Below, in pieces: positions 16,184 to 34,890 of a DNA stretch of 38,350 nucleotides (position 1 is the stretch's first letter; each line of letters opens with the position of its first letter). The stretch comes from a virus, in the IMG/VR virus record IMGVR_UViG_3300048597_000264, positions 1-38,350 of that record. One strand, written 5' to 3'. The notes under the pieces are model-generated. The model saw only the letters and a list, made by a program, of their open reading frames with translations, ran no database searches and had not been told where the DNA came from. Position numbers and translations under genes: made by a program.

Positions 16184-16207
16184 ATGGTTCCGTTTTCGTC
16201 CGTTGAC
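16184..16207 (-). promoter_or_regulatory. Late promoter element, lysis genes
   Basis: On the minus strand GTCAACG (16207-16201), 11 bases, then AACCAT (16189-16184). Same spacing as the other nine copies. The -10-like hexamer differs from TAnnnT at the first base. ATG of the 37-residue gene is six bases further. Confidence 0.65.
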
Positions 16208-16216
16208 CCTGCCACC

Positions 16217-16567
16217 ATGCGCGGGATGGAGAAATCGAGATTCGACGCGGTTCTCGTTAGCCTCGACGCGGCGGTGCTCGACAACGACGCGGACCCGTCG
16301 CACAAGGTGCGAATGGTGCTGATCGAGGCGAAAAAGGCAGGGATGCCTTGGGAACAGGCGTGGTTGAACGCGATGCGCTCCTTTTCACCCCCGCGCACGT
16401 GCGGACCCGGCCTCAGGGCGACGATGGAGGTCGAGCGCTCGCTGATCCGTGAAGTGAAGCCATGGTTCCAGGCTGCCTACGAGGATCGCGATGTGTCGAT
16501 CGACGAGTTCGAGCGAGCGTCGGCGCGCGCCGAGAAGCGTCTCGATTCGCTGATGGCGCTCGTCTAG
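16217..16567 (+). CDS. Plus-strand gene inserted among minus-strand late genes
   Basis: A 116-residue protein, mostly helical, with MVLIEAKKAGMPWEQAWLNAMRSF and a C-terminal acidic helix (DEFERASARAEKRLDSLM). No family recognised. It is one of only two plus-strand genes within the late region, opposed to both neighbours and starting beside the late promoter copy at 16184-16207. This is typical of a moron with its own transcription. Starts at 16217 or 16226 are possible; neither has a strong ribosome site. Confidence 0.55.
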   Translation: MRGMEKSRFDAVLVSLDAAVLDNDADPSHKVRMVLIEAKKAGMPWEQAWLNAMRSFSPPRTCGPGLRATMEVERSLIREVKPWFQAAYEDRDVSIDEFERASARAEKRLDSLMALV

Positions 16568-16576
16568 TCCGGCGCT

Positions 16577-18202
16577 TTACCCGACCTTCACCATCTGAAG
16601 GCTCGCGTTGGTGATGTTCAGGGCCGCGCCGCTGTTGTGGTTGACGGCAAGCTCGATGTAGTCACCCGCGGCGAGCTCGAGCGCCACCGAAAACGACTGA
16701 CGCGTCGTGATTCCGTTCGCGGCCGCCTGGGTCACGCCCTCGAGATTCGGGTTCGCGCCGTTCCTGAGCAAGAGCGCCTGCCGCCATCCGGTCGCGTTCG
16801 AGGCCCATACGGCGACGGCCGAAATCAAGTAGGTACCAGCCATCCCGGTCGGGATCGTGAGACGGCTGCTGTTGGTCACGAGATCGTGGAAGCTGTGGGT
16901 GTCTACGTCTTCGGAAGGAAACGTGACCGGTGTCTGAGTGGTGTTGCTGATGGACTGGTTCGCTCCGCGGAGTGCACGAACCCTCGGAAGAACCGGGTTA
17001 GCGTCTCCCACGGGCGACCAGGTCTGCACCGTGGTGCCTACCGTGATCGGGTCAGCGGTCGAGAGGAAGTAGGCCCTTCGCCCGGCCGGGTCGAACGCGT
17101 CCGAGTTCAGACCCTCAACGTAGGTTCCGTTCGAGAGACCACCGTCCATGGCGTCGGACGCTCGGGTCAACACCCAGGGCGTCGAAAACAGTACGCCTAC
17201 TGTCGTCACCGTGTAGATGCCGTTCCTCGCTCCCTGGTTCGCCACCAGAACTCGATCCCCGATCGCCCAACCCGGGAAGATGAAGTTGACGTCGCCGGTG
17301 AGCGTAGTTGCCGTGTGAGATGCCACCGCTGGCCACGCGCCCACCGTATTGCTGAAGATCCACTTGACTGGAGCTTTGAACTTGTAGCCGAGCGCTGCTG
17401 CGGCCAAGCCGGTCTGCAACTGCCCGTAGTTGACGGCTTCGTTGTTGGCGTTGCCATCGGGCACCACCACATCCCCGGTGAATGTGGGCGATGCCAGCGG
17501 GGCCGCGCCGAGCGCTGCCCTGCCAGCGGCCGCGTCCACGAGCGCCAGGAGTGAGCGTCCGAAGCTCGTAGTGGTAAGGGCCGCTATCGCGGTCAGGTCA
17601 GAGTCGAGCGGCTGCTTGGCGGCCAGATCGCTCGTGAGGTTGGTGATGTCGGACTGCGCGTGGGTGTGGCTAGATGCCGCGGCGCCGAAGACCGTCCGAG
17701 CTGCTGCCGCGTCAGCGATGCTCAGGATGCCGCGCCCGAAAGCCGTCTGCCCGGGTACGGCGGCTAGGGCGTCTAGGTCGGCGTCCCACGCCTGGACGTT
17801 GGTGCCGATCGACAGGCCGAGCAGGGTCCGGGCGGCCGCGGCATTCGCGAGCTCGAGCAAGGAACGACCGAAAGAGCTGGTCGAGAGAGCCGCGATCGCG
17901 GTGAGGTCGCCGTCTAACGGCTGCTTGTTCGCGAGGTCCGTGACTAGTCCGGTGACCTGGGCCTGCGCATGAGTGTGGGACGCCGGGGCGGCCCCGATGG
18001 CGCTGAGAGCGGCGGCCGCGTTGGCGAGCTCGAGCAGGCTGCGCCCGAACGAAGTTGTCGTGAGCGCGGCGATGGCGGTCAGATCGGAGTCGAGGGGCTG
18101 CATATCGGCTCCAGCCCCGGCCGAGTCGGGAACGAAGAGCACCTTGGGAGTCTTCGGCCTTGTGAGCTCGGCGACGAGATCTCGTCTACGCGAAACCTTC
18201 AT
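16577..18202 (-). CDS. Tail fibre with C1q-like tip
   Basis: A 541-residue fibre. After an N-terminal basic segment come four related repeats built on PLDSDLTAIAALTTTSFGR and LLELANAAAA, with two SHTHAQ motifs whose paired His residues could bind metal in a trimer, as in other fibres. A Gly/Val-rich central domain follows, and the last about 130 residues have a C1q/TNF-like jelly-roll pattern (NTTQTPVTFPSE, GTYLISAVAVWAS, GDYIELAVNH). It should bind the host surface. Start at 18202, where ATGA overlaps the preceding stop; the longer frame is rejected. DNA repeats underlie the protein repeats, so copy number may vary. Confidence 0.85.
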   Translation of the reverse strand: MKVSRRRDLVAELTRPKTPKVLFVPDSAGAGADMQPLDSDLTAIAALTTTSFGRSLLELANAAAALSAIGAAPASHTHAQAQVTGLVTDLANKQPLDGDLTAIAALSTSSFGRSLLELANAAAARTLLGLSIGTNVQAWDADLDALAAVPGQTAFGRGILSIADAAAARTVFGAAASSHTHAQSDITNLTSDLAAKQPLDSDLTAIAALTTTSFGRSLLALVDAAAGRAALGAAPLASPTFTGDVVVPDGNANNEAVNYGQLQTGLAAAALGYKFKAPVKWIFSNTVGAWPAVASHTATTLTGDVNFIFPGWAIGDRVLVANQGARNGIYTVTTVGVLFSTPWVLTRASDAMDGGLSNGTYVEGLNSDAFDPAGRRAYFLSTADPITVGTTVQTWSPVGDANPVLPRVRALRGANQSISNTTQTPVTFPSEDVDTHSFHDLVTNSSRLTIPTGMAGTYLISAVAVWASNATGWRQALLLRNGANPNLEGVTQAAANGITTRQSFSVALELAAGDYIELAVNHNSGAALNITNASLQMVKVG

Positions 18203-19428
18203 GCGATTTCCACCAGTCCCGGTTGGATAACGGTGGCGATCTCGCCGGTCACGTCGACATCTGAGATCTGAGGGGAACAAGTCAGCCGGACCGCGAGTTG
18301 CCCCGAGTCGAGCTCCGTGAGCTCGGCGTCCGTTATCCGTCCGGTCAACTCAAGATCGTCCTGCCCCTCAGTCCAGTCCGGAGTCCGGACCGAGAGCCCG
18401 ATCGTGTCGCCGATCCAATAGTCGCGCCCGAACGCTGGAGGCACACCAGGGCCCACCTCACTGTCCACTTGCTCGAAAGCCGAGGCGAATGTGAAGAATG
18501 GCGTTGGGTACGCCCCTGCCCCGACGATCGCCTTCGCGTGGGCTTCAAGGGTCGTGATCTCGCTTACGTCTTCGAGGGCCTCGTACTCCTCGAAAGTGCC
18601 GAACTCGGCAATCGATGCTTCATGCTTGGCGATGTAGGCCGGGTGCATCAGCAGCGAGTCGCCTTCGAAGGCGTCCTGAATCGGAGCGCCGACAACCGTT
18701 GCGCGATTGACCAGCCCGCCCGGCGCGAAGTTGAACTCGGTGGCCGTGAACGGTGACTTGCCGTAAGCGAAGACGATCTCGCCCGATAGATCCTGTCCCT
18801 GCTTGGGATGGAACGTATTGAACTGGCACAGCACCCCGTCATCGCGCACCACCGGCTCAAACTCGAAGTCGGGCCCGTCGATTGCTTCCGACATCTGGAG
18901 AAGCACCTCTCCCACCGACTTTCCGGGGGGGTAGGTACGGTTGCGCTCGACGTAGCCCTCGAGCGATCCCTGAGCCACCGTTTCGATCGCAGAGTCTTCG
19001 ATGACGGTCCACATGATTTCCGACTGCTCGGTCTCGTAGAACCACTTCGGCATGACGACGACGGTCGAACCTGGCACGTACGCGTAGGCCGGTGGAATTC
19101 GCCGCCCGATGAGCGCTGCGTCGCACTCAGCCAACGCGTCGGTCGCGTAGATGATCTCCCCGTCGGAATCGGACGATCCACTCTGCTCGGGAATGGTCAC
19201 CCGTGCGATGGCCAAGACCCGGCTGAAGTCGCCGGGTCCGCGCAAGGTCGCCCTGAGAACCGTGTTCATCGACTCTGCGAGGCCGCGTGCCGGGTCTTCC
19301 AGGCTGATCGGGCAACTCGCGCGACGGTAGGAGTTCAGGCCAATCTCGACCTTCGCCCCCGCGCGCCGGTTGTCGAGTCGGGCCAGGACGTTCTGGTTCA
19401 GGTCGCAGAGTTCCCAGTCGAGACGCAT
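18199..19428 (-). CDS. Tail-tip protein, Gp37-like baseplate hub
   Basis: A 409-residue protein that matches the Siphovirus ReqiPepy6 Gp37-like family as I recall it: N-terminal DWELCDLNQNVLARLDNRRAG, a hub-type core with IYATDALAECDAALIGRRIP and AYAYVPG, and the late motif DYWIGDTIGLSV. It would link the tail tube to the fibre. The ATG at 19428 overlaps the preceding stop (TGATG); sequence further upstream belongs to another frame. Confidence 0.7.
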   Translation of the reverse strand: MRLDWELCDLNQNVLARLDNRRAGAKVEIGLNSYRRASCPISLEDPARGLAESMNTVLRATLRGPGDFSRVLAIARVTIPEQSGSSDSDGEIIYATDALAECDAALIGRRIPPAYAYVPGSTVVVMPKWFYETEQSEIMWTVIEDSAIETVAQGSLEGYVERNRTYPPGKSVGEVLLQMSEAIDGPDFEFEPVVRDDGVLCQFNTFHPKQGQDLSGEIVFAYGKSPFTATEFNFAPGGLVNRATVVGAPIQDAFEGDSLLMHPAYIAKHEASIAEFGTFEEYEALEDVSEITTLEAHAKAIVGAGAYPTPFFTFASAFEQVDSEVGPGVPPAFGRDYWIGDTIGLSVRTPDWTEGQDDLELTGRITDAELTELDSGQLAVRLTCSPQISDVDVTGEIATVIQPGLVEIA

Positions 19429-20423
19429 CAGCTGTAGCCCTTCTCCCAGTAAAGCCTCGCGGTGGCGGAGTACGCCTGGGGCGTCAAGTCGCGAGCTCTG
19501 AAGCTGTCGAAGGCGAGCGTGGCCGAGACCGGCGTGTAGCCGTCGGCGAAGATCCCGACTTTCCCGCTTGCCACGGCTCCGGCCGAAGCGAGCGCGGCGT
19601 TGCTGCCTTCGGCAATGGCATTGCCCCATTCCGGAGCCGCGGGGTGCTTCGAGAAGATCGCCCAATCTCCCGACGCCCTGGCCTCGACGGCGAAGTCCCA
19701 CGGCGTCGTCGCGTCCAGGGGCAGGTCGGATGAGACGTACAGCGACGACATCGACCCGTTCATCAGGTTCAGCTCGACCCTCGTCCTGCCGCCGCTTTCA
19801 ACGACGGCCCAGGTGCGGGACAACAACAGGTAGTGCGTGGCGTCTGAGTACCTGACCACCAACGACGCGCTGAGCTGATCGAACGTTTCGGTGTACGAGG
19901 GGTACAGCGTCCCCTCTACTCGGACGTCGGGAAGGTTGGGTATGGAAGCGAGCGCGAACCGGGGGTGCTCCAGCTCACCCCCGATGCTTCGCACCACTCG
20001 GTGGTTGACGGCATCGACGCCGAAGTTGGGGGCTGTGCCTGTCTCCTGCCAGGTACCGCCGACCGTGAGCGCCTTTCCATGCAGGTTTCCCGCGGACTGG
20101 TCGAAGTTGTCGAGCGCGACGATCGAGCTGCCCTGGACTTCGATCTCGATGTCGTTCGGTCCGGCGGCGAGTGGCTCCGGCGTCCACAGCTCGTTATCCG
20201 AACTTGAAAGCAGACTAGACCTGTCGTTGCCGTCCTGGTCTCTGATCGTGCGGCGGAAGAAGTCGAGCTTGAGATCATCCCCGTCAAATGACGCCGGGAG
20301 CTTCAGCCGCAGTGTTTTGCCAGTGGTGACGTTTCTCAGTACGACATCAAGGGCGGGAGTGGATGACGGGAGGGTGAGCCGGAGCACCGGCCCCCGCGAG
20401 TTGTTCGGAATGGTCAGGCTCAT
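19428..20423 (-). CDS. Tail protein with carbohydrate-binding-like domain
   Basis: A 331-residue protein. The first about 95 residues resemble the second half of a distal tail protein (RLKLPASFDGDDLKLDF, then GPNDIEIEV). The remainder has a LamG-like jelly-roll pattern (ALDNFDQSAG, GTLYPSYTETFDQLSAS, HYLLLSRTW). With the gene before it, this looks like a distal-tail protein split in two, with an added sugar-binding module. It overlaps its neighbours by a few bases on both sides. Confidence 0.65.
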   Translation of the reverse strand: MSLTIPNNSRGPVLRLTLPSSTPALDVVLRNVTTGKTLRLKLPASFDGDDLKLDFFRRTIRDQDGNDRSSLLSSSDNELWTPEPLAAGPNDIEIEVQGSSIVALDNFDQSAGNLHGKALTVGGTWQETGTAPNFGVDAVNHRVVRSIGGELEHPRFALASIPNLPDVRVEGTLYPSYTETFDQLSASLVVRYSDATHYLLLSRTWAVVESGGRTRVELNLMNGSMSSLYVSSDLPLDATTPWDFAVEARASGDWAIFSKHPAAPEWGNAIAEGSNAALASAGAVASGKVGIFADGYTPVSATLAFDSFRARDLTPQAYSATARLYWEKGYS

Positions 20424-20986
20424 GGGTCCTCGATTTCGTAGGTGGTGTTCGTGTAGGCGATCGCGGCCTCGTCGGATTCCGACTCCTCGTCGAAGTAGCG
20501 CGGATCGCTCATTCGCAGACTCACCACGAACGCCCTGTTGAAACGCTTGCTGCCCTGCTCGTCGATGATCTCGCAGGCAAGCGCTCGCGCCTCGTAGAAC
20601 TTAGGCGTTACCGCGGCGAATTCGGCGTTGTCCTCGTGCCAGACCACGTCCATTCGGCCTTCGAGCTCGAGGTCGAAAAAAGCGTCCCGGAGATCCTGCT
20701 CTGCGGTACGAAGCTCCAGGAGGTTTCGAGCATGGATCGTCCCCTCGTAGACCACCGTCTTCCCGCGCCGCTTCGAAAGCCGGGCGATCTCGCCGACGCG
20801 TCCGACGAGCAGGTCGCGACTGTCCTGCGGGTCGCCGAGGCTGTGAAGGCCAGAGACGCGGTTCAGCTTGTAGCGCGGCCAAATCAGCGCGCCGGTGGTC
20901 GGTGCCTTGACGGCACCAAGGATCACCGCAGGGGATACCGCTCCCGGTGGGGTCCAGAAGTGCAGTGCTTCGATTCCGCCGATCAC
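20420..20986 (-). CDS. Distal tail (Dit)-like protein, N-terminal part
   Basis: A 188-residue protein with the Dit ring pattern: EALHFWTPPG, RDLLVGRVGEIARLSKRRGK, RTAEQDLRDAFFDLELEG and SLRMSDPRYFDEE near the end. It joins the tail tube to the tip. GTG start at 20986 overlaps the stop of the tape measure (GTGA), which favours it over the longer frame upstream. Confidence 0.75.
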   Translation of the reverse strand: MIGGIEALHFWTPPGAVSPAVILGAVKAPTTGALIWPRYKLNRVSGLHSLGDPQDSRDLLVGRVGEIARLSKRRGKTVVYEGTIHARNLLELRTAEQDLRDAFFDLELEGRMDVVWHEDNAEFAAVTPKFYEARALACEIIDEQGSKRFNRAFVVSLRMSDPRYFDEESESDEAAIAYTNTTYEIEDP

Positions 20987-23559
20987 GCGAAGCCACCCCT
21001 GACCCTGAGCTTCGCGTCGATCATCGCCAAGGTCGTCTCGACGTCGGGCTGCGTACCTGCCGGCGCGTTCACGGCGACGTTGTAGATCGAATCGCCGTGC
21101 GAGACGGCAGCGCCCGTAACCATGCCCGTGAGGTCCCGGAGGGTCGGACCTGACGAGCTCGCCGCGGCGCTCAGCAGGTCTGCGGGATTCGGGATGTCCG
21201 GCAGGTTGACTTTGAAGTTGATCGGAATCAGGCTCGAGACTGCGCTCTTGATTGCCTCCCACACGCCCCTGGCGGCGCTGACCAGCGCCCCCTTGGCGGC
21301 GGTGATCGCGCCCCGAACGGCGTTGAAGGCCGCACCCACGACACTCCTCAGGCCACTGAGCACACTCGATGCCGACTCCTTCACCGCGGTCCAGGTACTC
21401 CGGGCAATCTCGCGGATGGCGCCGCCCACCGCAGAGACGACGCCGCGGGCACCCTGCATGGAGTTGGAGATCGCCTGCCGGACTCCCGACCAGATGTCTC
21501 GGGTGAAGGCCCGAATGGTCGACCAGGCGGCACGGGCAGAGTCTCGAATCGCGCCAGAAACCGTGCGCACGACATCGCGAGCCGCTTGGATCGCATTCCG
21601 GATGCCGTCCCGAATCCCCTGCCAGATGCTTCGGGTGAATTCGCTAGTTGCTTTCCAGGCCGAGCGGGCGCGGTCACGAATCGCTCCGGTGACATTCTGG
21701 ACGATCTCTCGAGCAGCATGGAGCGTGTTCCTGACGGCGTCCCGAATCCCCTGCCAGATGGTGCGCGTGGCGTCACTCAGTCGCGTCCACCGGGACCGAG
21801 CGGTCTCGACGATCGAGCCGGTCACGTTGCTGACCGCCTTCGCGACTCCCGCGACGGCTGCCTTCACGAATGAGAAGGCCCCGGAGAAGGCTCCGCCGAT
21901 GGCACCGGCCACTCCGATCAGGATGCGGATCGACCCGACCAAGAGACCGGCCCCCGCTTTGATCTTTCCGAAGCCGACCACGAACCCGAGCAGGCTTCCG
22001 ATCGCCGCTCGCACACCTGACGGGATCTCGTCATTCAGCCAGCTCAGCACCACGTTGAGGACATCGAGCACCTGGTTGAAGCCGGCGATGATCGGCGTGA
22101 GGGCGGGTGCGAGAAACTGCCCGAGCTGGAGCAGTGCCAGCCCGATGTTCAAGATGAGCTTGCCGACTTCACTGGCGAGCGGCGCCGTGTCCGCGAAGAA
22201 CTGCTTCACCTTCTCGAGTCCATCGCTCGACCTGAGCCAGTCGGCCAGGTGGCGCGCGCCGTCGCCGAGATCTCGCACCATGCCATCGCCGAGCTGCGCA
22301 AAGGCAAGCACCGCGGCGCCGATCAGGTCGGCGATCCCGCCGAGTAGATCGAGCCAGGCGCCGAGGGAATCGACCATGCCGGCGATGACGCCGCGCAGCC
22401 CTCCGATATCTGAGGTGTAGGAAGCGACCGCTGCCAGCCCATCCGCCAAGGACTCCATACCGGAGATCAGGAAGGGCATTGCCGCGACGGCGATGTTCGC
22501 GAGGATCTTGGCCAATGAGCCGAAGCTCTGAGCGAAAAGAGGTGCCAGCTCGATGGCTGCTTCGCCCGCCTCACGCAGTAGCCGCTGAATCTCCATCGAT
22601 GCGAACGCCTCGCCGAGGATGCGCGCAGCGTTGCCCCCGGCCTGACCGAGCGCGGTGAACATCGGCTCGAGCCCCTGCACGACGGGCTTCAAACTCGCAA
22701 GCGCATCGGCCAGTCCGCGGAAGAGCGCGTCAGCTCCGTTCCGGGTCACCTTCAGGAACGCATCGGCGAATCCCGACGCCGCTTCTTTGAGCCCGTTCGC
22801 GGCGCTCCCGGCTTTTTCAGCAGTCGAGTTAAATCTCGACACAGCGCCAATCGCCAGGCCTACCACCGGGATCAACGTCGCCCCGAGCGCGGTGCCGATC
22901 GCGACGATGCCCCCCAGGGCACTGACGAGAGAGGCCCCCATAGCCACGATCGCTCCCGACAGGGCCACGAACAGAGGGATCAGGATCGGGAGAAGCCGCA
23001 CCAGCATCATCAGCTGGCCGCTCATCCCTCCAGCGCTCCCGCTGAAGCCGTCTGCGGACTTCGAGGCACCACCGACGGCAGCGCCAGCGCTGGCACTTTC
23101 GCCAGCGAGCTTGCCCATGGCACCCGACAACCCTAGGATCTTGCCGGTGACATCGCGCCGCACGTTGACGTCGATGTCTACGTCCTCGTTGTCTAGGTCC
23201 TCCATCTTCGCGTCGAGGACCTGGAGTTGGAGAAGCGCTTTCGCCACGTCGGCGTTCACCTGCGCATCGACGCTTTCTCCGTCGATCCGGTTCAGTGCGG
23301 CCTGGAGAACCTGGAGCTTGCCCCGGGCCTCGCGGGTGTCGATGTCGGTGTCGGCGGTCGCGGTCTCGCGCGCGAAGTCGGCGAGACTCCTCTCGATCGC
23401 CTTCAGCTTCCGCTTGACCTCCTTGTCCTCGAGGTCGAGCGTGGCTTCAGCCTCTTGCTTGTCGAACGCATTCAGCTCGACGGCAAGTTCGCCGAGATCC
23501 CTGCTGGCATCGTCCGTGTCACCACGGACGCGCAGGAGGATTTCATTGATGCTCGGCAT
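20983..23559 (-). CDS. Tape measure protein
   Basis: An 858-residue protein that sets tail length. An acidic coiled-coil N-terminus (1-150) leads to a hydrophobic region with several potential membrane helices (about 185-260), then helical repeats. From about 585 there are four repeats of some 44 residues, each with a Trp pair (such as TRSIWQGIRDGIRNAIQAAR, then GAIRDRARSAW); the DNA repeats with 132-bp period. Length predicts a tail of roughly 130 nm by the usual 1.5 Å per residue. ATG lies six bases after a late promoter hexamer and has no Shine-Dalgarno. Confidence 0.9.
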   Translation of the reverse strand: MPSINEILLRVRGDTDDASRDLGELAVELNAFDKQEAEATLDLEDKEVKRKLKAIERSLADFARETATADTDIDTREARGKLQVLQAALNRIDGESVDAQVNADVAKALLQLQVLDAKMEDLDNEDVDIDVNVRRDVTGKILGLSGAMGKLAGESASAGAAVGGASKSADGFSGSAGGMSGQLMMLVRLLPILIPLFVALSGAIVAMGASLVSALGGIVAIGTALGATLIPVVGLAIGAVSRFNSTAEKAGSAANGLKEAASGFADAFLKVTRNGADALFRGLADALASLKPVVQGLEPMFTALGQAGGNAARILGEAFASMEIQRLLREAGEAAIELAPLFAQSFGSLAKILANIAVAAMPFLISGMESLADGLAAVASYTSDIGGLRGVIAGMVDSLGAWLDLLGGIADLIGAAVLAFAQLGDGMVRDLGDGARHLADWLRSSDGLEKVKQFFADTAPLASEVGKLILNIGLALLQLGQFLAPALTPIIAGFNQVLDVLNVVLSWLNDEIPSGVRAAIGSLLGFVVGFGKIKAGAGLLVGSIRILIGVAGAIGGAFSGAFSFVKAAVAGVAKAVSNVTGSIVETARSRWTRLSDATRTIWQGIRDAVRNTLHAAREIVQNVTGAIRDRARSAWKATSEFTRSIWQGIRDGIRNAIQAARDVVRTVSGAIRDSARAAWSTIRAFTRDIWSGVRQAISNSMQGARGVVSAVGGAIREIARSTWTAVKESASSVLSGLRSVVGAAFNAVRGAITAAKGALVSAARGVWEAIKSAVSSLIPINFKVNLPDIPNPADLLSAAASSSGPTLRDLTGMVTGAAVSHGDSIYNVAVNAPAGTQPDVETTLAMIDAKLRVRGGFA

Positions 23560-23565
23560 AGTTCA

Positions 23566-23589
23566 AGCCTGCTGATTACGAGCCTTGAC
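23566..23589 (-). promoter_or_regulatory. Late promoter element, tape measure
   Basis: GTCAAGG (23589-23583), 11 bases, CAGGCT (23571-23566), six bases, ATG of the tape measure gene. It overlaps the end of the frameshifted chaperone. Confidence 0.7.
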
Positions 23590-24986: not shown

Positions 24987-25010
24987 AACCTACGCAGTCA
25001 GTTCGTTGAC
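24987..25010 (-). promoter_or_regulatory. Late promoter element, major tail protein
   Basis: GTCAACG (25010-25004), 11 bases, TAGGTT (24992-24987), six bases, ATG. A clean copy of the motif, overlapping the end of the small acidic gene. Confidence 0.75.
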
Positions 25011-25261
25011 CCAATGGGCTCGATTTCGTGTTCGTCGTCGTCTCCGCACTCCGGCAACTCGCCGGCGTTCTCGCCGCTGGAGTCGGCGTCGTCGAGCGAT
25101 GTCGAACCAGGGATCTCGAAGTCGTGGCCCTCGACCTCGGAAAGGGAGTCCGCAGCGTCTTCGGGGAGCTCGACCGCAGCTCCAGCGGGGAGCTTCACCT
25201 TCTCCGCACCAACCCGAACGAGAAAGTAGCCCGAAGGGCCTCGGTAAGTGACCGTCTTCAC
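24998..25261 (-). CDS. Small protein with basic head and acidic tail
   Basis: An 87-residue protein. Residues 1-35 look like a small beta domain (TVTYRGPSGYFLVRVGAEKV), and the rest is very acidic (DDADSSGENAGELPE). Place before the tail tube gene suggests a tail-tube accessory or head-tail protein. GTG start seven bases after a late promoter hexamer. No family recognised. Confidence 0.55.
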   Translation of the reverse strand: MKTVTYRGPSGYFLVRVGAEKVKLPAGAAVELPEDAADSLSEVEGHDFEIPGSTSLDDADSSGENAGELPECGDDDEHEIEPIGSTN

Positions 25262-25268: not shown

Positions 25269-25292
25269 ACGCTACCGATCCACCCTCTTGAC
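25269..25292 (-). promoter_or_regulatory. Late promoter element, small acidic gene
   Basis: GTCAAGA (25292-25286), 11 bases, TAGCGT (25274-25269), seven bases, GTG. Confidence 0.65.
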
Positions 25293-26212: not shown

Positions 26213-26486
26213 CGCGCACCTCGAGAAGGCGGAGCTCCACGTGAGGGATGAACTCGTTTTGGAAGGCCTCGACGACCTTGTAGGTGACGCTCCCGACCAC
26301 AAGCCGGCGGTTGGTCTGGCGGATCAGGTGCGGCGCGGAGTCGGAGTGCGCCTCCCCCGTCCAGTCGTAGGCTACGCCGCGCGCTATGGCTGAAGCTCCG
26401 CCGAGTTCGAGGTGAACCGGTACATCCTCGACCAGCGTTGAGCCGCTCTGATCCTGAATCTCTGCCAGCTGGTCGAAGGGCAACAT
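26205..26486 (-). CDS. Head-closure (stopper)-like protein
   Basis: A 93-residue small beta-rich protein (VPVHLELGG, NRRLVVGSVTYKVVEAF, PHVELRLLEVRGG). It lies between the adaptor and the gp10-like protein, where head-closure proteins are usually encoded. Assignment rests mainly on order and size. Confidence 0.6.
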   Translation of the reverse strand: MLPFDQLAEIQDQSGSTLVEDVPVHLELGGASAIARGVAYDWTGEAHSDSAPHLIRQTNRRLVVGSVTYKVVEAFQNEFIPHVELRLLEVRGG

Positions 26487-27172: not shown

Positions 27173-27181
27173 CTACTTCTC

Positions 27182-27205
27182 ACGGTAGATGGACGGCCCG
27201 TTGAC
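27182..27205 (-). promoter_or_regulatory. Late promoter element, connector genes
   Basis: GTCAACG (27205-27199), 11 bases, TACCGT (27187-27182), nine bases, ATG. Confidence 0.7.
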
Positions 27206-27242
27206 CCAACGACGCGGGGCTCGCGATAAGTGCCGGGCCGAC

Positions 27243-27728
27243 TTATGCGGGCGCTGACCCGGAAGTCGGCGTTGCGATAGTGACGCCGGGTGAGGTTCCG
27301 CCCGTGAGGCCGGCTGCGCTCGCGGTCATGGAGGCCACGTTCGCATCGGACAGATCGCCCTTGAAGGTGACGGTGTACGGACCACCGGCTGAGCCGGTCA
27401 CCTTCACGTCGCCTTCCCCGATGTTGGAAAGCGCCTCCAACCGAGCCTTCACGGTGGCGGCTGAAGCGTTGTGCGCGATCGCCGCCGTCGTCTGGCCAGC
27501 GAAGGTCAGCGTGAAGCTGCCGCCGCTGGGACCACCCGTGATCGTGACGCTCTGAACCTCGTTGGTGCCCGCGCCTTGGATCTCGCCGTCGACGTAGGCC
27601 TCGGCCTTCGGGTGCGGATCGGCACCGGTTCCATCCTTGTTCCGACCGGGCTCGGCGGCGGCCGCTACAGGCCACCCCGAGTCCTCGCCGGTCAGATGGA
27701 TCCCAGACCTGTTGTCGGTCTCCGACAT
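27243..27728 (-). CDS. Capsid decoration-like protein
   Basis: A 161-residue Gly/Thr/Ser-rich protein. After a short head (SETDNRSGIHLTGEDSG) the body has one beta domain with EVQSVTITGGPSGGSFTLTF, GQTTAAIAHNASAATVKARLEAL and GGPYTVTFKGDLSDANVASM. Similar domains occur in capsid proteins of actinophages, here as a separate gene next to the major capsid. A decorating or stabilising role is likely. Start four bases after the capsid stop. Confidence 0.6.
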   Translation of the reverse strand: MSETDNRSGIHLTGEDSGWPVAAAAEPGRNKDGTGADPHPKAEAYVDGEIQGAGTNEVQSVTITGGPSGGSFTLTFAGQTTAAIAHNASAATVKARLEALSNIGEGDVKVTGSAGGPYTVTFKGDLSDANVASMTASAAGLTGGTSPGVTIATPTSGSAPA

Positions 27729-27732
27729 CAGG

Positions 27733-28689
27733 TCAGATGGTCAGGTCGTAGGCGTCGACGACGGCCTCGTCCTCGAGGATGATGAAGTCGCGCTTGAGGA
27801 AGTAGACGTGACCTTCCTTGTCGCGGGTCGCCAGCTCCCAGTCAGTCTCCGGCGTGACCTTGTACTTGCGCACGTCCCAGGTGACGACGCGAGCGAAGTT
27901 CTGCGGGTCGGCCAGGATGATCCGGTTGTCCGGGAAGAACGGGATGCCCGGCCGGGCACCGTCGCCCTGACCGTTGAACCACGGAATTCCGTACGGACCG
28001 AAGCCCTTGCCCATGAGCGCGCCGTCTCCGGCCGCAGTCTCGCGCTCCGACAGGTACTCCGTCCAAGCGAAGGCCACGGTCGGCGAGGCCAGCCAGCTGA
28101 GCCCAGGCTGCGCCAGGTACTTGTCGGGCATCGCGTCGATCATGGCCTTGAAGACTTCCTTGCCGAACGCGCCCGAGTTGATGGAATCGGTATCCACCCT
28201 CTGTCCCGAAGGAAGCGCGGCGGCGAGCTTCAGCAGGCCATCGTCGATCTTCACGAACGCGTCGCCCGACGCGGTGTCGCCGTTGATGTCGAGATCGTCG
28301 AGATCGAGACCGAGCTGCTTCTGCATGGCCTTGATGACCTTGGCCTTCGCCGACTCGCCCTCGATGTTCTCGTGGGCCCAGTCGTTGGTGATCTCGAACG
28401 GCAGCCAAACCTTCTTGGCCTCGTACGTGACATCGTCGGTGGCAGCGCCGGCACGGTAGCCGTCGTCGCTGTTCTCGGCCTTGCCGCGAAGCAGGCGAGA
28501 GCCGACTCCGAGCTTCGAGATCTCACCCTCGGGCGCGCGCTTGCGGATGGTCTGGATCTTCGAACCGAAGACCGACATGTCGGTCGCCTCTTCGATGAAG
28601 GCCTTGGACTGCTCGGGCGTCAGGAGTCCTCCGACCGACGTGTCGATCGTGGCCTTCTGGAGTTCGGCCAGTGCGGCGCGGCGGTTCAT
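27733..28689 (-). CDS. Major capsid protein, HK97 fold
   Basis: A 318-residue protein. Pattern of a phage HK97-type capsid: N-terminal TVGG-like LLTPEQSKAF, a long spine helix with the LGLDLDDLDING segment, loops with GIPWFNGQG and PDNRIILADPQN, then DFIILEDEAVVDAYD. It lies directly after the protease/scaffold gene. The ATG overlaps the preceding stop, and no promoter copy lies in between; the internal promoter at 29035-29058 could drive scaffold and capsid together. Confidence 0.9.
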   Translation of the reverse strand: MNRRAALAELQKATIDTSVGGLLTPEQSKAFIEEATDMSVFGSKIQTIRKRAPEGEISKLGVGSRLLRGKAENSDDGYRAGAATDDVTYEAKKVWLPFEITNDWAHENIEGESAKAKVIKAMQKQLGLDLDDLDINGDTASGDAFVKIDDGLLKLAAALPSGQRVDTDSINSGAFGKEVFKAMIDAMPDKYLAQPGLSWLASPTVAFAWTEYLSERETAAGDGALMGKGFGPYGIPWFNGQGDGARPGIPFFPDNRIILADPQNFARVVTWDVRKYKVTPETDWELATRDKEGHVYFLKRDFIILEDEAVVDAYDLTI

Positions 28690-29024
28690 CAGATCATCTC
28701 CATGAGTGCGGGGTTGATGCCCTCGGCCTCGGCGGCTGCCTTGGCCAGCTGCTTGCGCTCGGATGCGCTCGCGGCGGGGTCCGGGTCGTCGCTCTGCGCG
28801 GAGTCACCCGCGGCGAGCTTCTCGATGCTGGCCTCGATGGCGTCGACGCGACTGGCGAGCTCTTCGCCGTCCTCGATTTCCTTGAGGTCTGACACGGCCT
28901 TGGAGATCGACTCCATGGTCGGCTCTGATTCTTCGACGGAGATACCGAGGGACTTCGCGAAGTCCGCCGCGACGCCCTTCTTGATCTCGTCGACCAGTTC
29001 TGTGCGTTCCTCTGGAGTAAGCAT
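28689..29024 (-). CDS. Nested scaffold protein within the protease gene
   Basis: In-frame ATG at 29024 would give the last 111 residues of the protease gene as a separate, acidic helical protein (LTPEERTELVDEIKKGV, SISKAVSDLKEIEDGEEL), the kind of sequence that acts as an internal scaffold, as Nu3 in lambda lies within C. A complete late promoter copy (29035-29058) lies inside the protease coding sequence just upstream, making expression as an own product plausible. This start has not been observed; it is inferred from the promoter motif. Confidence 0.55.
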   Translation of the reverse strand: MLTPEERTELVDEIKKGVAADFAKSLGISVEESEPTMESISKAVSDLKEIEDGEELASRVDAIEASIEKLAAGDSAQSDDPDPAASASERKQLAKAAAEAEGINPALMEMI

Positions 29025-30446
29025 CTCACTATCCGTTTTACTTATTTCCTCCGTTGACTCAACGGAGCCGATCACTTCCTGCTGCTTGGCGATGCCTTCG
29101 CTCGAACCGAGCAGACTCTCCGCCCAGTCGCAGAACTCGTCCACCGATGCGCGAATCACGGCCATCGGGTCTTCCTCGTCGCCGTGAACCGCGCTGAAGA
29201 TCACGCTTCGCAGCAGATCCATGCCTCGCGGCAGCTCGTCAGAGAGCTTGTCGGCTGCCATGCGGTCGCCGAAGGTCGCGGCCTTGGCCAGGTCTTCGGT
29301 CTCCTCGTCGGTACCGAGCAACAGTTCGGAAAGCTTCTTCACGGTCGACTTCCCTTTCTTCTTCGACGCCGCCTGGGAGGCTCGGACGGCCTGCCTTTGG
29401 CGGGGAGTCATTTGAGCCGCCGACTTGAACGCCTGCGGGTGCGAGCTGCGGGTGATGATCGACCCGTCCTCCATGAACATTCGGTTCGGACCGAGAAGCC
29501 CTCCGCGATCCTGAAACGCCTTCATCCTGTTGAGTCGCTGGCCATCGGGCTGGTCGTTCCATGACTTGACCGACAGGCGGGGACTCGCGCCTTCCCATCC
29601 CTTTGGAGTCTTGCCCTTCAGGTTGCCGCCCACGAGTCGACTCGGTGTGCCGTTGATCGTCGGCGCCAACGTCGACCCACCGCCACGCGCCGCCCTGTTC
29701 TTGCCCCCGGCACCGGGACGAGCCCTCGGACCACCCTTCGACGCGAAACGGCCACCACCGGACGCGCCAGCTGGCGCGCGGCGATGCTTGGACTCGTCAT
29801 AGCGCCCCCGTCGCCGCTTCGACAGTTCTTCACTGATCGTTTCGGGATCCATGCCTTCAAGTTCTTCGACGGAGACGTTGAGTGCTTTGGCCACTGTGCC
29901 GAGAAGCTCGTCCTCTTCGCTGGACTTTTCGACCAGGGTCCGCAGCCCCGTGCCTTCGATCGAGACTCCGGTGAACTCGCCGCTTTCGATCGCGTCCCGC
30001 CCATGCTCGTTCGGCTCGATCGCGATGTACCAGGACCCCTTGCGGATCGTCTCACCGCCAACGTCGATGTCGGTAAGCGCGATCGCGTTCTCAACCATGA
30101 CGCCGTACTGGTCCAGCGTCTCGTGCATCTTGTTGATCAGCGCGCCGTTCTTCGCGAACCGGTGACAGGCCTTCCGTATCTCCTCCTCGTCGGCCCACAT
30201 GTCGGGGACCTCACTGCCCCCGACGCCAGCGTCCTCGAGCGCGCCCGGTTCGGCGACAACGCAGTAGACGGCTGACCAGTCCCCAGCCTTCCTGAGCAGT
30301 GACGAATCCGTTGTGAGATCGATCAGGTCGGTCTCGAGGTCTTCTCCCTCGGCGGACTTTCGAAGGAAGAACCGCTTTCGGTTGGCACCCTTGTTCACTA
30401 GGGACACCGCGACCACATCGACATTGCTCAAGGCGTTGTGCTTCAT
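28689..30446 (-). CDS. Prohead protease-scaffold fusion, XkdF-type
   Basis: A 585-residue protein. The N-terminal part (about 45-165) matches the phage serine-protease XkdF domain (YCVVAEPGALEDAGV, ACHRFAKNGALINKMHET, KGSWYIAIEPNEHG, SGEFTGVSIEGTG). A basic, Gly/Arg-rich linker (about 200-260) and helical region follow, then an acidic coiled coil at the C-terminus that is scaffold-like. It cleaves the capsid precursor and guides assembly. ATG lies six bases after a late promoter hexamer; it has no real Shine-Dalgarno. The second half may also be made alone from an internal start. Confidence 0.75.
   Translation of the reverse strand: MKHNALSNVDVVAVSLVNKGANRKRFFLRKSAEGEDLETDLIDLTTDSSLLRKAGDWSAVYCVVAEPGALEDAGVGGSEVPDMWADEEEIRKACHRFAKNGALINKMHETLDQYGVMVENAIALTDIDVGGETIRKGSWYIAIEPNEHGRDAIESGEFTGVSIEGTGLRTLVEKSSEEDELLGTVAKALNVSVEELEGMDPETISEELSKRRRGRYDESKHRRAPAGASGGGRFASKGGPRARPGAGGKNRAARGGGSTLAPTINGTPSRLVGGNLKGKTPKGWEGASPRLSVKSWNDQPDGQRLNRMKAFQDRGGLLGPNRMFMEDGSIITRSSHPQAFKSAAQMTPRQRQAVRASQAASKKKGKSTVKKLSELLLGTDEETEDLAKAATFGDRMAADKLSDELPRGMDLLRSVIFSAVHGDEEDPMAVIRASVDEFCDWAESLLGSSEGIAKQQEVIGSVESTEEISKTDSEMLTPEERTELVDEIKKGVAADFAKSLGISVEESEPTMESISKAVSDLKEIEDGEELASRVDAIEASIEKLAAGDSAQSDDPDPAASASERKQLAKAAAEAEGINPALMEMI
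29035..29058 (-). promoter_or_regulatory. Internal late promoter element, scaffold
   Basis: GTCAACG (29058-29052), 11 bases, TAAAAC (29040-29035), ten bases, ATG. It lies in an A/T-rich patch within a GC-rich gene. The -35 part is the arm of a 15-bp near palindrome (29051-29065). Confidence 0.6.
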
Positions 30447-30452
30447 GCTTCC

Positions 30453-30476
30453 ACGGTACGAATCTGCGGCGTTGAC
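30453..30476 (-). promoter_or_regulatory. Late promoter element, protease gene
   Basis: GTCAACG (30476-30470), 11 bases, TACCGT (30458-30453), six bases, ATG. It starts directly after the 3' end of the phage tRNA. Confidence 0.75.
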
Positions 30477-30480
30477 CCAA

Positions 30481-30553
30481 TGGCGGGACCGGGATTCGAA
30501 CCCGGATCTCCGGCTGATGAGGCCAGTGACCTACCTGGTTGGTCCATCCCGCA
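30481..30553 (-). tRNA. Initiator-type tRNA, anticodon CAT
   Basis: A 73-base tRNA folds cleanly: acceptor 5' TGCGGGA with 3' TCCCGCC (six pairs, with position 1 T opposite 72 C unpaired), D stem GACC/GGTC with loop AACCAGGTA, anticodon stem CTGGC/GCCGG with loop CTCATCA, T arm CCGGG-TTCGAAT-CCCGG, discriminator A. Initiator hallmarks are present: unpaired 1:72, A11:U24, the TGGA start after the acceptor and a D loop like that of bacterial tRNA-fMet; the anticodon stem carries G29:C41 and G30:C40 but C31:G39 rather than G:C. Base 37 is C, which is odd. CCA is not encoded. A late promoter copy lies directly upstream, so its 5' end is close to the expected start of transcription. Confidence 0.85.
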
Positions 30554-30558
30554 GATCG

Positions 30559-30582
30559 AACCTATTCAGACGCGGCGTTGAC
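30559..30582 (-). promoter_or_regulatory. Late promoter element, phage tRNA
   Basis: GTCAACG (30582-30576), 11 bases, TAGGTT (30564-30559), five bases, first base of the tRNA. Confidence 0.75.
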
Positions 30583-30640
30583 TCTCGACGGTTCGCCAGG
30601 TTGAATCTGTGCCCCAGTCAAACAGGGAAAGGGGTTCAGG

Positions 30641-30832
30641 TTGTCTCTCCTCATCACACTGAAGAATGGAAACGTGATCGACGCCCATTGCTCGGTCGCC
30701 GAAGCGCACGCGAAGATCACCGGCGCCGCAAGATCAGACCCTCGGATGGTGCTGCTGCCTGGGACCGATGGTGGCCCCGATGTGGCCGTCGATCGACACG
30801 AGGTCCTCACGATCGTCGAAGACCGGGACTAG
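30641..30832 (+). CDS. Small plus-strand gene, unknown
   Basis: A 63-residue protein starting with TTG six bases after AAAGGGG. A compact alpha/beta sequence (LLITLKNGNVIDAHCSVAEA, then VAVDRHEVLTIVEDRD). It is opposed to all late genes and overlaps the end of the MuF-like gene by four bases. Like the plus gene at 16217 it may be a moron. No family recognised. Confidence 0.5.
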   Translation: MSLLITLKNGNVIDAHCSVAEAHAKITGAARSDPRMVLLPGTDGGPDVAVDRHEVLTIVEDRD

Positions 30833-31458
30833 GGCAGCATCGACCCGTCTGGCCAGGGGGCCCGCGGCCGGCACCGGCAGTTGCCGCCGTGGGCGATCCC
30901 TGGCCATCCGATCTCCGGTGGCCTGGCGGCAGAAAAGTTCCGCCCGTGAGCAGCCCGGCACAGTGGCGTCGTGCGGTCGTCGAGGACCGCCTTCCAGCCG
31001 AGGGTGTCTCCGAACTGAGCTGCGGCCGTATCGATTTGCTCGGCGGCCTTCTCGCGGCGGCGCTCAGCAGCAAGATGTGCGCCGAAGAGCCGCGTCTCAG
31101 CCGTCGGAGATCCACCGGTGGCCATGCGCCGAGAGGCCGTCACGAGATACATCGCTCGCCGAGCCGCAGCGCCTCGCATCATCGTCGTTTGGGCCGCACC
31201 AGCCGCAGCTGGCGGCGGTGAGAAGCTCAACCCGGCGAAGGTGACGATCGAGACGAGCCGACCTATCACGGCCGCCGGCACCCCGAGAGGCACCAGGATC
31301 GAGATCAGGCCCTGGACAAGAGCCGTCTGAGAGAGGCCCGCAAGGAGAAGAAGCGTGATCGCCACGATCGCTGCCTGCTTCTGAACTTCGTCGGCCTGTT
31401 CGTTTCCTGAATCGTCGCGCTGGCCCTCATCGCTTGCCACCTCGTCCTCACTCGACAC
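30829..31458 (-). CDS. MuF-like minor head protein with hydrophobic N-terminus
   Basis: A 209-residue protein. The C-terminal part has the MuF pattern (DDRTTPLCRAAHGRNF, then PPEIGWPGIAHGGNCRC), as in proteins that help early capsid assembly or DNA delivery and lie beside the portal gene. Unusually the N-terminal third has two strongly hydrophobic stretches (AAIVAITLLLLAGL; SILVPLGVPAAVIGRLVSIV), like membrane helices, and the protein is short for its family. It overlaps the portal gene by 11 bases. Confidence 0.7.
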   Translation of the reverse strand: MSSEDEVASDEGQRDDSGNEQADEVQKQAAIVAITLLLLAGLSQTALVQGLISILVPLGVPAAVIGRLVSIVTFAGLSFSPPPAAAGAAQTTMMRGAAARRAMYLVTASRRMATGGSPTAETRLFGAHLAAERRREKAAEQIDTAAAQFGDTLGWKAVLDDRTTPLCRAAHGRNFSAARPPEIGWPGIAHGGNCRCRPRAPWPDGSMLP

Positions 31459-32962
31459 CTATCGAACCCGCAGCGAGACCGCCCGCCGCTTGCGCTTCAG
31501 CCAACAGAGACGCTGCCGCCTCTGCTCCGCGCTGAATGCCGAGCGCGTCGGGTGTGCTCGCAGAGGACGAATCGATCAGCTCGGCGTTCCAGCCGTACGG
31601 CACCTGCCCAGGTTCGGGCTCCTGACCCTCGTCGGCCTCAGGCATCGGCGGGAATCCCTGCCTCTCCCTGTACTCACCCCGGGTGATCACGTTGTAGCTG
31701 GCAGCGTCGTTTGCGGCCTGCCTTCGAGTCGTGTCGGTCTCGATCTCAATGTCTTTGAAGCTGAACCGCAGGTGTGGGAAGCCGAGGTCCCGAAGTAGCG
31801 TGTCGGAGAGCTGCTCTTCCCATGCTTCCTGCTCCGGGTCGAAGACCTGTTCCTTCGTGATCGCCCTCTCGACATCGGCCGTGTACTTCCCGGCGTCTTC
31901 GATGTCGGCGACGAAAATCGGAGAGATGCGCCAGGCGCCGAGCGTTCGCCGTCGGTTGTCTGCGCGGAAGGCGACGAAGCCCACGTCCCGGTCCGAGACG
32001 CGCGTCATGTCCTCGCGCTGCACCTTCGCGCCCGACGGAATCGGAACGATGGCCACCCGCTTGTTCTTGTTGTCGGACGAGCGCATCGTGTCCGCGATGG
32101 CTTTGACCGTCTTCTGACTGATCTGGACGGTCTGCTTGTTGCCGTTGCTGTCCTCAGGCTCGACGCTGATGAAGAAGGTCGTCGGAGGTACGCCCTGGCC
32201 GTCGAAGAAACCGAGGTTGGTCTCCGCCGCATTCTTGTCGCCCAGGAAGTCCCAGGCCAGCTGGACATCCGGTGGTAACCCGTAGTCCCGACTCTCAGAC
32301 GTGTACAGCTGGAAGGCGATCAGCTCGTTCCGGTTCCAGCGCTTCCCGTTGCCGGATTGGAGCACACCCATCGGCAACCCTTCATCGTCGTACTGGACCT
32401 TGTCCCCGAAGTTGTCGAAGCGGACGCGATCGGCGATCGTCGCGCTGCGGGTGCCGACCACCCATCCGGAGCGATCGCGCAAGCGGCGGACTCGTTTGCC
32501 CGGCGCGTGGAAGAGGCCGTCGATCCGGCCTGTGACCCGGTTGCGCGAAACCTCGAGGTATCCGTTGCCGACTTCCTGCTCATCCCACTTCACTCGCTGA
32601 ATGAGTTTGCTGAAGGTCGGTGACCCGGAGCGAACGTCCCGCCTCGCACAGTCGTTGAGGAGGTCAAGCGCTCTCTGCGGCTCGCCGTCTTCGGCCTCGT
32701 CCTCCATGCCCACCCGCGGCACGATTGATACCCCCAGGCCAATGCTGTTGAGCGTGATCGCCTTGATGCACGAGCGGCGGACCGGTGAGATCTGCGTCAG
32801 CTGCGCGAGGCGATCCAGGTTTTCGGGAGGTTCGATCGCGTCGTTCGGCGTCCAACGGTTGTCGTCATCGGGCTGCTCGGACTTGCCTTCTGGCATCGTC
32901 GCGGCACTGATCCGGATGACCTTTGCGATCTCCTGTTCGACTTGCTTCTCTAGAGAGTCCAC
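31448..32962 (-). CDS. Portal protein
   Basis: A 504-residue phage portal of the SPP1/HK97-like sort: N-terminal stem with IDGLFHAPGKRVRRLRD, GYLEVSRNRVTG, LQSGNGKRWNRNELIAF, a wing domain with TFFISVEPEDSNG, and TRVSDRDVGFVAFRADNRRRTLGAWRISPIF. It is the DNA channel of the head. GTG start eight bases after a late promoter hexamer, with no Shine-Dalgarno. Confidence 0.85.
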   Translation of the reverse strand: MDSLEKQVEQEIAKVIRISAATMPEGKSEQPDDDNRWTPNDAIEPPENLDRLAQLTQISPVRRSCIKAITLNSIGLGVSIVPRVGMEDEAEDGEPQRALDLLNDCARRDVRSGSPTFSKLIQRVKWDEQEVGNGYLEVSRNRVTGRIDGLFHAPGKRVRRLRDRSGWVVGTRSATIADRVRFDNFGDKVQYDDEGLPMGVLQSGNGKRWNRNELIAFQLYTSESRDYGLPPDVQLAWDFLGDKNAAETNLGFFDGQGVPPTTFFISVEPEDSNGNKQTVQISQKTVKAIADTMRSSDNKNKRVAIVPIPSGAKVQREDMTRVSDRDVGFVAFRADNRRRTLGAWRISPIFVADIEDAGKYTADVERAITKEQVFDPEQEAWEEQLSDTLLRDLGFPHLRFSFKDIEIETDTTRRQAANDAASYNVITRGEYRERQGFPPMPEADEGQEPEPGQVPYGWNAELIDSSSASTPDALGIQRGAEAAASLLAEAQAAGGLAAGSIGVE

Positions 32963-32970
32963 TTACAGCC

Positions 32971-32994
32971 ATGCTGCCGAGAAAGCGGGTTGAC
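32971..32994 (-). promoter_or_regulatory. Late promoter element, portal gene
   Basis: GTCAACC (32994-32988), 11 bases, CAGCAT (32976-32971), eight bases, GTG. Confidence 0.6.
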
Positions 32995-32996
32995 CC

Positions 32997-34370
32997 TCAG
33001 ACGACCAGCGTCTTCACGGTAGGCCGTTCGGAGTAGTCCATCAGCTCCGAAAGGGCCCACACCGCGGCGTCCATGCGATCCGGTGAGGCTATCCCCGGTT
33101 CGCCGGTCCAGTTGACCATCTGATCTTCGAGTTCGGGCAGGTTTCCGATGTGGTGGACCACGGGATCCTTCGTGTTGGCTCCCTGCTCGTAGAGCATGGC
33201 GCTCGGCTCGGCTCGAGTCCGCTTGCCGTCCGAGGCTGTGACCTCCTTGTACGGCACCCGAATGCCCGACTCCTTCATCGCCTGCTCGAGTAGATCGGTC
33301 AGGAACTTGCCGCCGTGATTCTTCTCGACGACGATGGTCGCGTTCACCGAGTGCGCCAGGGCGACCGCCTTCGTCAACCAGTCGAGCGGCGTGGTCCTCA
33401 TCCCCTCGGATTGCGCGACATAGATGTGCCGGTCTTCGCCGATGCCGGCCAGACACCACGCCTGCTCGTCGGACTGGTCGAGGCCGTCGGATGGATCGAG
33501 CGCCAGCACCCGGCGCCGGTAGACCTCAGGGCCCTGGAGTACCCGCCCCAGATCGATCCACTCCCGCCGCCACAATGCGCCCTCGGCCTCGTCGAGCATG
33601 ATCCCTTCGAGCTCCTGCTGTCCGAGCGAAGTGTTCGCCGTTCTCAGCACTCGGCGCTTGAACGGCTCCGACAGATACGCCCAGTTGTCCCGGGTCAGCA
33701 GCCGCCGAGTGGTGACGTGCTCATCGGACATCAGCCGCTTGATCAGAGCTCGCGCCGGCCGGTCGCGCTTGGGTGTGCCGGTTGCGATGATCCGGGATTG
33801 GCCCTTGCGAAGGGCGTAGGCGATCGCTTCGTCGAACGCCATCTCCCACAGCTTCCACAGTCCGAGCTCATCGCACCAGACGCCACGCAGGTTCTCACCC
33901 TGGATTCGCGCCGCGCCATTGTCGGCCCCGTCGATCAGGATCTTCTGTCCGTTCAGCAGCACCATCTCTCCAATCGAGCGGTTCCACGTCTTGACCGTCG
34001 GTGAGATCCCCTTCTCGACTTCCGAGCGAGTCGTGTGAAAGGCGGCAAGCAGGCCGCTTTCGCCTTCAACGCATTTGTTACGAGCGTCGGCGAACGTCGG
34101 AGCTACGGCGGCCCAGACGCCGGGTCCCTCGGTCTCGAGTACCGGATCAGCGTCGATCTCTTCTTTCAGGATGTGGGCACCGGCCCACGTTTTTCCCGAA
34201 CCGCGGCCGCCCATGAGCAGCAGCGTCTCCCACTCGGCCGGTGGCAGCTGGTCCTCGCGCGCCGTGTCTCGCCAAGTGCCGAGCTTGGCTTCGCGGAGCT
34301 TCAAGAGGAGACGCTTCTTCTCCTCGACCTCCCAGCCCTTCCACGCGTCAAGCGGGGGTGCGGTCGCCAC
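32997..34370 (-). CDS. terL: Terminase large subunit
   Basis: A 457-residue DNA-packaging motor. Walker A GRGSGKT (55-61), Walker B GVWCDE (163-168), coupling motif ATGTP (196-200) and a RuvC-like nuclease domain with D292 in LALDPSDG, E349 in VVEKNHGG and a late acidic residue in DRMDAAVW are visible. It cuts concatemers and drives DNA into the portal. GTG start, overlapping the small subunit gene by 23 bases. Confidence 0.93.
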   Translation of the reverse strand: MATAPPLDAWKGWEVEEKKRLLLKLREAKLGTWRDTAREDQLPPAEWETLLLMGGRGSGKTWAGAHILKEEIDADPVLETEGPGVWAAVAPTFADARNKCVEGESGLLAAFHTTRSEVEKGISPTVKTWNRSIGEMVLLNGQKILIDGADNGAARIQGENLRGVWCDELGLWKLWEMAFDEAIAYALRKGQSRIIATGTPKRDRPARALIKRLMSDEHVTTRRLLTRDNWAYLSEPFKRRVLRTANTSLGQQELEGIMLDEAEGALWRREWIDLGRVLQGPEVYRRRVLALDPSDGLDQSDEQAWCLAGIGEDRHIYVAQSEGMRTTPLDWLTKAVALAHSVNATIVVEKNHGGKFLTDLLEQAMKESGIRVPYKEVTASDGKRTRAEPSAMLYEQGANTKDPVVHHIGNLPELEDQMVNWTGEPGIASPDRMDAAVWALSELMDYSERPTVKTLVV

Positions 34371-34860
34371 GATCCGCGTCCTCGAGCAGCTTCTCGATCT
34401 CCCTGTCCAGCTGATCGGTCGTTCGGTGCTCGGTGCGATCGGTCGCCCGGCCGTCGAGGAGTTCGGCCTTGTCGATCAAGACCCCGATGGCGATCGAGTA
34501 ATCCTTGACGTCGCCCGCGGTCGGGCTGTCCAGATGCTTTCGATCTCCGTCTTTGCCAACGAAGTATTCGTGCCGAGCGTCGAAGCGTTCAAGCAGGTCC
34601 AGGGCACGACGCCGGCACTCTAGCTTGATCCTCTCGCGCTTCTCCGCTGCGTCCCTCGCCGCGGCCTCGATCATGGCCTGCGTACGTTTTTGCCGATCCT
34701 CAGTGACACCGGATCTCTTGGCCCACTGCCGAATCGTCGTCGAGCTGATCCCCGTTTCCTTCGCGGCCGTGGCCGGACCTTTCTCGACGTAGATCTTCAG
34801 CGCAGTCTCCCGCGCCTTCTTCGAGTAGGCACCCTGCTTGTTCTTCCGGAACTTCGCCAT
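34348..34860 (-). CDS. terS: Terminase small subunit
   Basis: A 170-residue protein with an N-terminal helix-turn-helix (KKARETALKIYVEKGPATAAKETGISSTTIRQW), a central basic helix and a coiled C-terminus rich in Asp and Arg that would bind the large subunit. It recognises packaging sites. It precedes terL as usual. Its ATG is six bases after a late promoter hexamer and has no Shine-Dalgarno. Confidence 0.8.
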   Translation of the reverse strand: MAKFRKNKQGAYSKKARETALKIYVEKGPATAAKETGISSTTIRQWAKRSGVTEDRQKRTQAMIEAAARDAAEKRERIKLECRRRALDLLERFDARHEYFVGKDGDRKHLDSPTAGDVKDYSIAIGVLIDKAELLDGRATDRTEHRTTDQLDREIEKLLEDADRGDRTPA

Positions 34861-34866
34861 ACAACG

Positions 34867-34890
34867 AAGCTACGAAAGCGAAGCGTTGAC
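34867..34890 (-). promoter_or_regulatory. Late promoter element, terminase
   Basis: GTCAACG (34890-34884), 11 bases, TAGCTT (34872-34867), six bases, ATG. The stop codon of the gene upstream overlaps the -35 part. Confidence 0.75.

Follow-up and report, generated by a model that had tools for sequence, protein, structure and literature searches.

Which signal switches on the late genes of this phage, and what reads it? The window, that is, the whole stretch of DNA analysed here (IMG/VR virus record IMGVR_UViG_3300048597_000264, 38,350 bases, 64% G+C), belongs to a temperate tailed phage with an integrase gene (166-1248) and an XRE regulator gene (7281-7490). Its late genes lie on the minus strand, extending from terS at 34.9 kb as far as the lysis genes at 14-16 kb. 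A tRNA-Pro gene (GGG) is located at the right end of the window (38227-38300), and no exact direct repeat of at least 14 bases that would mark an attachment site was found between the two window ends. According to the original prediction, a ten-copy family of late promoters precedes the late genes. All ten elements were recovered at the positions given there, each on the late strand:

34867..34890, minus strand: predicted late promoter element of terS; ATG 34860 at predicted +1
32971..32994, minus strand: predicted late promoter element of the portal gene; GTG 32962, predicted leader 2 nt
30559..30582, minus strand: predicted late promoter element of tRNA-Met; first paired base 30552 at predicted +1
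30481..30552, minus strand: tRNA-Met (CAT), predicted to be transcribed from its element at +1
30453..30476, minus strand: predicted late promoter element of the head maturation protease gene; ATG 30446 at predicted +1
29035..29058, minus strand: predicted late promoter element within the protease ORF; in-frame ATG 29024, predicted leader 4 nt
27182..27205, minus strand: predicted late promoter element of the head-tail adaptor gene; ATG 27172, predicted leader 3 nt
25269..25292, minus strand: predicted late promoter element of a small gene; GTG 25261, predicted leader 1 nt
24987..25010, minus strand: predicted late promoter element of the putative major tail protein gene; ATG 24980 at predicted +1
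23566..23589, minus strand: predicted late promoter element of the tape measure gene; ATG 23559 at predicted +1
16184..16207, minus strand: predicted late promoter element of a 37-aa ORF ahead of the lysis genes; ATG 16177 at predicted +1

The name of the putative major tail protein was adopted from the original prediction; the PHROG match of its gene is of unknown function. As proposed, the start codons of terS, the protease gene, the major tail gene, the tape measure gene and the 37-residue ORF lie exactly six bases past the -10-like hexamer of the element. For the remaining genes, offsets of five to ten bases had been stated, and we found seven (the gene starting with GTG at 25261), eight (portal, GTG) and nine (adaptor), while the site inside the protease ORF has an offset of ten to an ATG or five to a GTG. 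The first paired base of the tRNA (30552) likewise lies exactly six bases after the hexamer; ARAGORN and Rfam set its 5' end one base earlier, at 30553.

A search with TerL and its profile yielded three related contigs:

G001, IMGVR_UViG_3300048930_000236: TerL 95%, 10 elements
G002, 3300005689_000100: TerL 68%, 8 elements
G005, 3300044837_000268: TerL 69%, 14 elements

Independent scans of viral contigs, either with the motif or with the gene located two genes before terS, reached the same three contigs. In the motif scan of the viral collection, most matches were single chance occurrences, and several high-scoring sites were present only in the three related contigs. A further TerL relative (G006, 60%) lacks the motif and shares few other genes. 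A portal search of genome contigs gave no relative, a TerL profile search of genome contigs gave only relatives of at most 46%, all of them devoid of the motif, and a description of this motif was not found in literature searches. The window and its relatives form a group of uncultivated, temperate phages, each with at least eight predicted promoter copies inside the virion-gene cluster.

The element copies of the three relatives are mostly located at matching genes. The terS element occupies the same site in G001 and G002 and also in G005, the portal element is kept in all three, and the tRNA-Met element is kept in G001. In G005 an element likewise precedes the tRNA, and the leader predicted there is about 7 nt long. 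The element at 16184..16207 is kept in G001, and a similar one is present in G005; in both, a longer protein follows. Three elements of G005 lack a start codon in the 10 nt that follow the hexamer. Identity between orthologous sites of the window, G002 and G005 amounts to 91% in the core, compared to 38% in the spacer and 33% in the upstream 40 bases. The core is therefore far more conserved than its surroundings, and the elements appear to be under selection.

From 30 sites of three diverged phages we derived the refined signature GRGTCAASG-N10-G[T/C/A]AnnnT-n-G-N4-start, in which the hexamer is numbered -12 to -7. The upstream box consists of G-32 (28/30), R-31, GTCAA at -30 to -26, which is invariant since most sites were found by searching with it, C or G at -25, and G-24 (27/30). 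Its 9-bp consensus, GGGTCAACG at -32 to -24, is asymmetric. The -10 region shows G-13 (22/30), T>C>A at -12, A-11 in all 30 sites and T-7 in 28; T-12 is weak (17/30), and one -10 (TAAAAC) is without T-7. G-5 was found in 24 of the 30 sites and was absent from every search pattern by which these sites had been collected. In nearly all sites the hexamer follows the 9-bp box after 11 bp, or GTCAAC after 12 bp. At the strict start- or tRNA-linked sites of the four phages this spacer is 11 bp, except for the terS and tRNA copies of G005, in which it is 12 bp. A weight matrix trained on the ten sites (score of at least 10) returned ten hits in the window, all of them on the late strand. In the phages outside the training set, the same matrix gave 7 and 0 hits (G002) and 13 and 1 hits (G005) on the late and the other strand, respectively, mostly before start codons, compared to 0.3-2.2 hits over both strands in shuffled sequence.

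Where would transcription begin? At 13 of 29 coding sites the start codon coincides exactly with the predicted +1, compared to 5.7% after any YANNNT (binomial p about 2e-9), and at most other coding sites it lies within 4 nt; in the window, four of the ten sites have a start codon 1-4 nt past the predicted +1. The first paired base of tRNA-Met is at the predicted +1 in both the window and G001. This shared register of tRNA and coding genes speaks for a role of the element in transcription rather than translation, and one tRNA is predicted to be made without a 5' leader. A tRNA with a CAT anticodon occurs in the same part of the window, G001, G005 and G006; read by eye, the copy of G006 resembles an initiator tRNA, and that of the window is unusual in having C at position 37. 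The lack of a good Shine-Dalgarno sequence was borne out by the mean anti-Shine-Dalgarno duplex energy, which is -3.5 kcal/mol at element-linked starts compared to -7.4 kcal/mol at other genes (p = 0.008). The original proposal of leaderless mRNAs holds for about half of the starts, which are exactly leaderless by prediction, whereas most others have leaders of 1-4 nt; the late mRNAs would hence be leaderless or nearly so. In mycobacteria, many mRNAs begin directly with ATG or GTG, and such leaderless transcripts are translated well (PMC4633059); in a related host, this translation step is therefore plausible.

One element, at 29035..29058, is located within the protease ORF. In all four phages the start downstream of it is in frame and uses the protease stop codon; the nested proteins comprise 111, 112, 112 and 228 aa.

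28691-29024, minus strand: nested 111-aa gene, putative scaffold, with in-frame start and own predicted promoter element

The nested product is likely a scaffold, judging from the position of its gene before the capsid gene. In phage lambda, the scaffold gene Nu3 is nested in C. The arrangement seen here resembles C/Nu3, with the difference that the nested gene has its own promoter element. In G002 (L025), an antisense HNH-endonuclease-like gene (about 4350-5110, minus strand) separates the late promoter and its ATG from the start of the protease gene and looks as though it had been inserted at the start codon.

The XRE gene provides an internal control for ordinary promoters:

7491..7525, minus strand: predicted early promoter of the XRE gene 7281-7490, TTGACA-N17-TATAAC-N6-ATG

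The G001 counterpart reads TTGACA-N18-TATACT-N7-ATG. The surrounding stretch of the window (7491-7540) is a divergent early region, and the XRE mRNA is predicted to be leaderless. The canonical form of this promoter indicates that the host sigma factor appears to use ordinary promoters, also with leaderless or nearly leaderless starts. Compared to it, the late class lacks the -35 hexamer and carries the GGGTCAACG box instead.

Comparative evidence supports the promoter function, the late class, the leaderless or nearly leaderless start and the non-standard -35 region that had been proposed. We consider it probable, on the basis of sequence, that the repeats represent one family of late promoters of the phage, at which the primary sigma factor reads the -10 and the discriminator and a phage activator bound to the box replaces the -35 contact. 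The host polymerase, carrying its primary sigma factor, would recognize the hexamer through A-11 and T-7, and the discriminator through G-5. The -35 hexamer is missing from its standard place, and the box would be the site of a phage-encoded activator that stands in for the contact of sigma region 4 with the -35. Dependence on this activator would restrict firing to the late phase, and transcription would begin 7 nt past the hexamer, hence at the start codon or a few nucleotides upstream.

The original prediction had left the choice between an activator and another sigma factor open. A-11, T-7 and G-5 are bases contacted by a primary sigma factor in the -10 and the discriminator. With these bases in 30, 28 and 24 of the 30 sites, the hexamer is a normal primary-sigma -10, and an activator is therefore favored over a different sigma factor. 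An alternative sigma factor of phage or host, reading both box and hexamer across an unusually short spacer, would account for the fixed 11-12 bp spacing, the strongly conserved box and the weak T-12. We nevertheless regard it as unlikely, given that -10 and discriminator look like primary-sigma determinants. The spacer is also shorter than in most known sigma classes, which counts against this alternative, as does the lack of a sigma region 2 or an above-cut-off region 4 match in the four phages, whose records may be fragments. Region 4 matches below the cut-off, in the XRE protein, G005 terS and the antisense HNH-like gene of G002, were rejected. Moreover, across 396 genomes sharing the phylum of an Actinomycetes-labelled MAG, which may not be the phylum of the host, the motif showed no excess over the reversed control, and a host regulon is therefore not indicated.

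Other functions of the box fit the data less well. As an operator, it would bind a phage repressor or silencer on otherwise constitutive, -35-less late promoters, in line with its overlap with the promoter and with the XRE and putative H2TH DNA-binding proteins encoded by the phage. However, such promoters would be left without any upstream recognition, the distance between box and -10 is fixed, and an early gene has a full -35/-10 promoter, which together render an operator improbable. Even less probable is an element that works at the RNA level, either in translation initiation or as a start-associated sequence (SAS) like that of cluster K mycobacteriophages. Adjacency to start codons and the single orientation would suit this reading, but the same register precedes a tRNA, the A-11/T-7/G-5 signature is that of a promoter, and the box, 24-32 nt upstream, is outside the Shine-Dalgarno region. 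The cluster K SAS consensus GGGATAGGAGCCC is also absent next to start codons, with two two-mismatch matches, the level expected by chance. Finally, chance repeats in a GC-rich genome have a negligible probability. With one mismatch allowed, GTCAA-N13-TANNNT, the loose form of the pattern, has 11 matches compared to 6.2 +/- 2.6 in shuffles, and this mild enrichment is by itself not significant. Significance rests instead on exact matches, single-strandedness, fixed spacing, start-codon registration and conservation; the matrix, the strand bias and the conservation in three other phages all speak against chance, which the held-out phages contradict.

A candidate for the phage activator that we favor is the product of the following gene:

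35177..35530, minus strand: putative H2TH (sIHF/S13-like) protein gene, candidate activator, two genes upstream of terS

The gene is present in all four phages, with no clear homologue in G006 and none in 50,697 phage records. Its product has no convincing sequence match in Pfam, PHROG or PDB, and Pfam H2TH_5 did not match. A single-sequence fold was poor, whereas a model from the four-sequence alignment was usable (core pLDDT about 85-94). The top Foldseek match of this model is Streptomyces sIHF bound to DNA (6bek, E 0.008). VIA-align placed it with S13/H2TH-type helical domains (Z about 8), and the best rows were the helical domains of TFB2M and KsgA; as Z stayed below 9, we claim only a common arrangement. 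IHF-type H2TH proteins usually bind DNA with little specificity. For this reason, and because linkage to terS alone can explain the distribution of the gene, the putative H2TH protein remains a lead, a weakly supported candidate. Other candidates are the XRE gene (7281-7490) and a winged-helix gene (3094-3447, HTH_39). Elsewhere in the window (1445-1726, minus strand), a small protein resembles mycobacterial mIHF and Streptomyces sIHF (PDB 6tob, E 1.4e-6). As a tentative possibility, we suggest that a new activator, perhaps the H2TH/sIHF-like product of 35177..35530, appropriates sigma in convergence with T4 MotA/AsiA in a probably actinobacterial host, giving rise to leaderless virion mRNAs, a leaderless tRNA and a promoter-defined nested scaffold.

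Promoters of high-GC actinobacterial phages, including those of mycobacteriophages (PMC11373665), are poorly defined, and a late set recognizable by sequence offers a direct handle on late-gene control. Such a set predicts start codons and the nested scaffold gene, and with it one could test for convergent sigma appropriation and for the leaderless translation of many virion proteins.

Comparison with known systems places the elements closest in geometry to the T4 middle promoters. The resemblance to mycobacteriophage SAS noted in the original prediction extends to a repeated, start-adjacent sequence in one orientation, as described for the SAS/ESAS of cluster K (PMC3203893), but it is superficial and the sequence differs. 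Unlike the elements described here, SAS occurs only in the non-structural genome half, and it contains a Shine-Dalgarno-like AGGAG at 3-7 bp from the start codon. Actinobacterial leaderless SigA-type promoters likewise have a -10 set so that +1 is the ATG or GTG; here, in contrast, a conserved box common to the whole late set replaces the -35. That a single temperate phage can have many late promoters dependent on an activator has a precedent in P1, with eleven Lpa-dependent late promoters (PMC10695390); the P1 activator site, however, is a 9-bp inverted repeat, whereas GGGTCAACG is not one. In T4 middle promoters, a MotA box at a distance of 12+/-1 bp from the -10 takes the place of the -35 (PMC2988021), and the elements share with them a primary-sigma -10, the missing -35, an asymmetric box 11-12 bp upstream and many copies per genome. 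They differ in the box sequence (TGCTTtA in T4), in driving virion genes and in having the start codon at or near +1, and the MotA/AsiA profiles (MotCF PF09158, PF09010) gave no match in the four records, which may be fragments. On present evidence the late elements are thus not members of the T4 family, but they may work like a T4 middle promoter.
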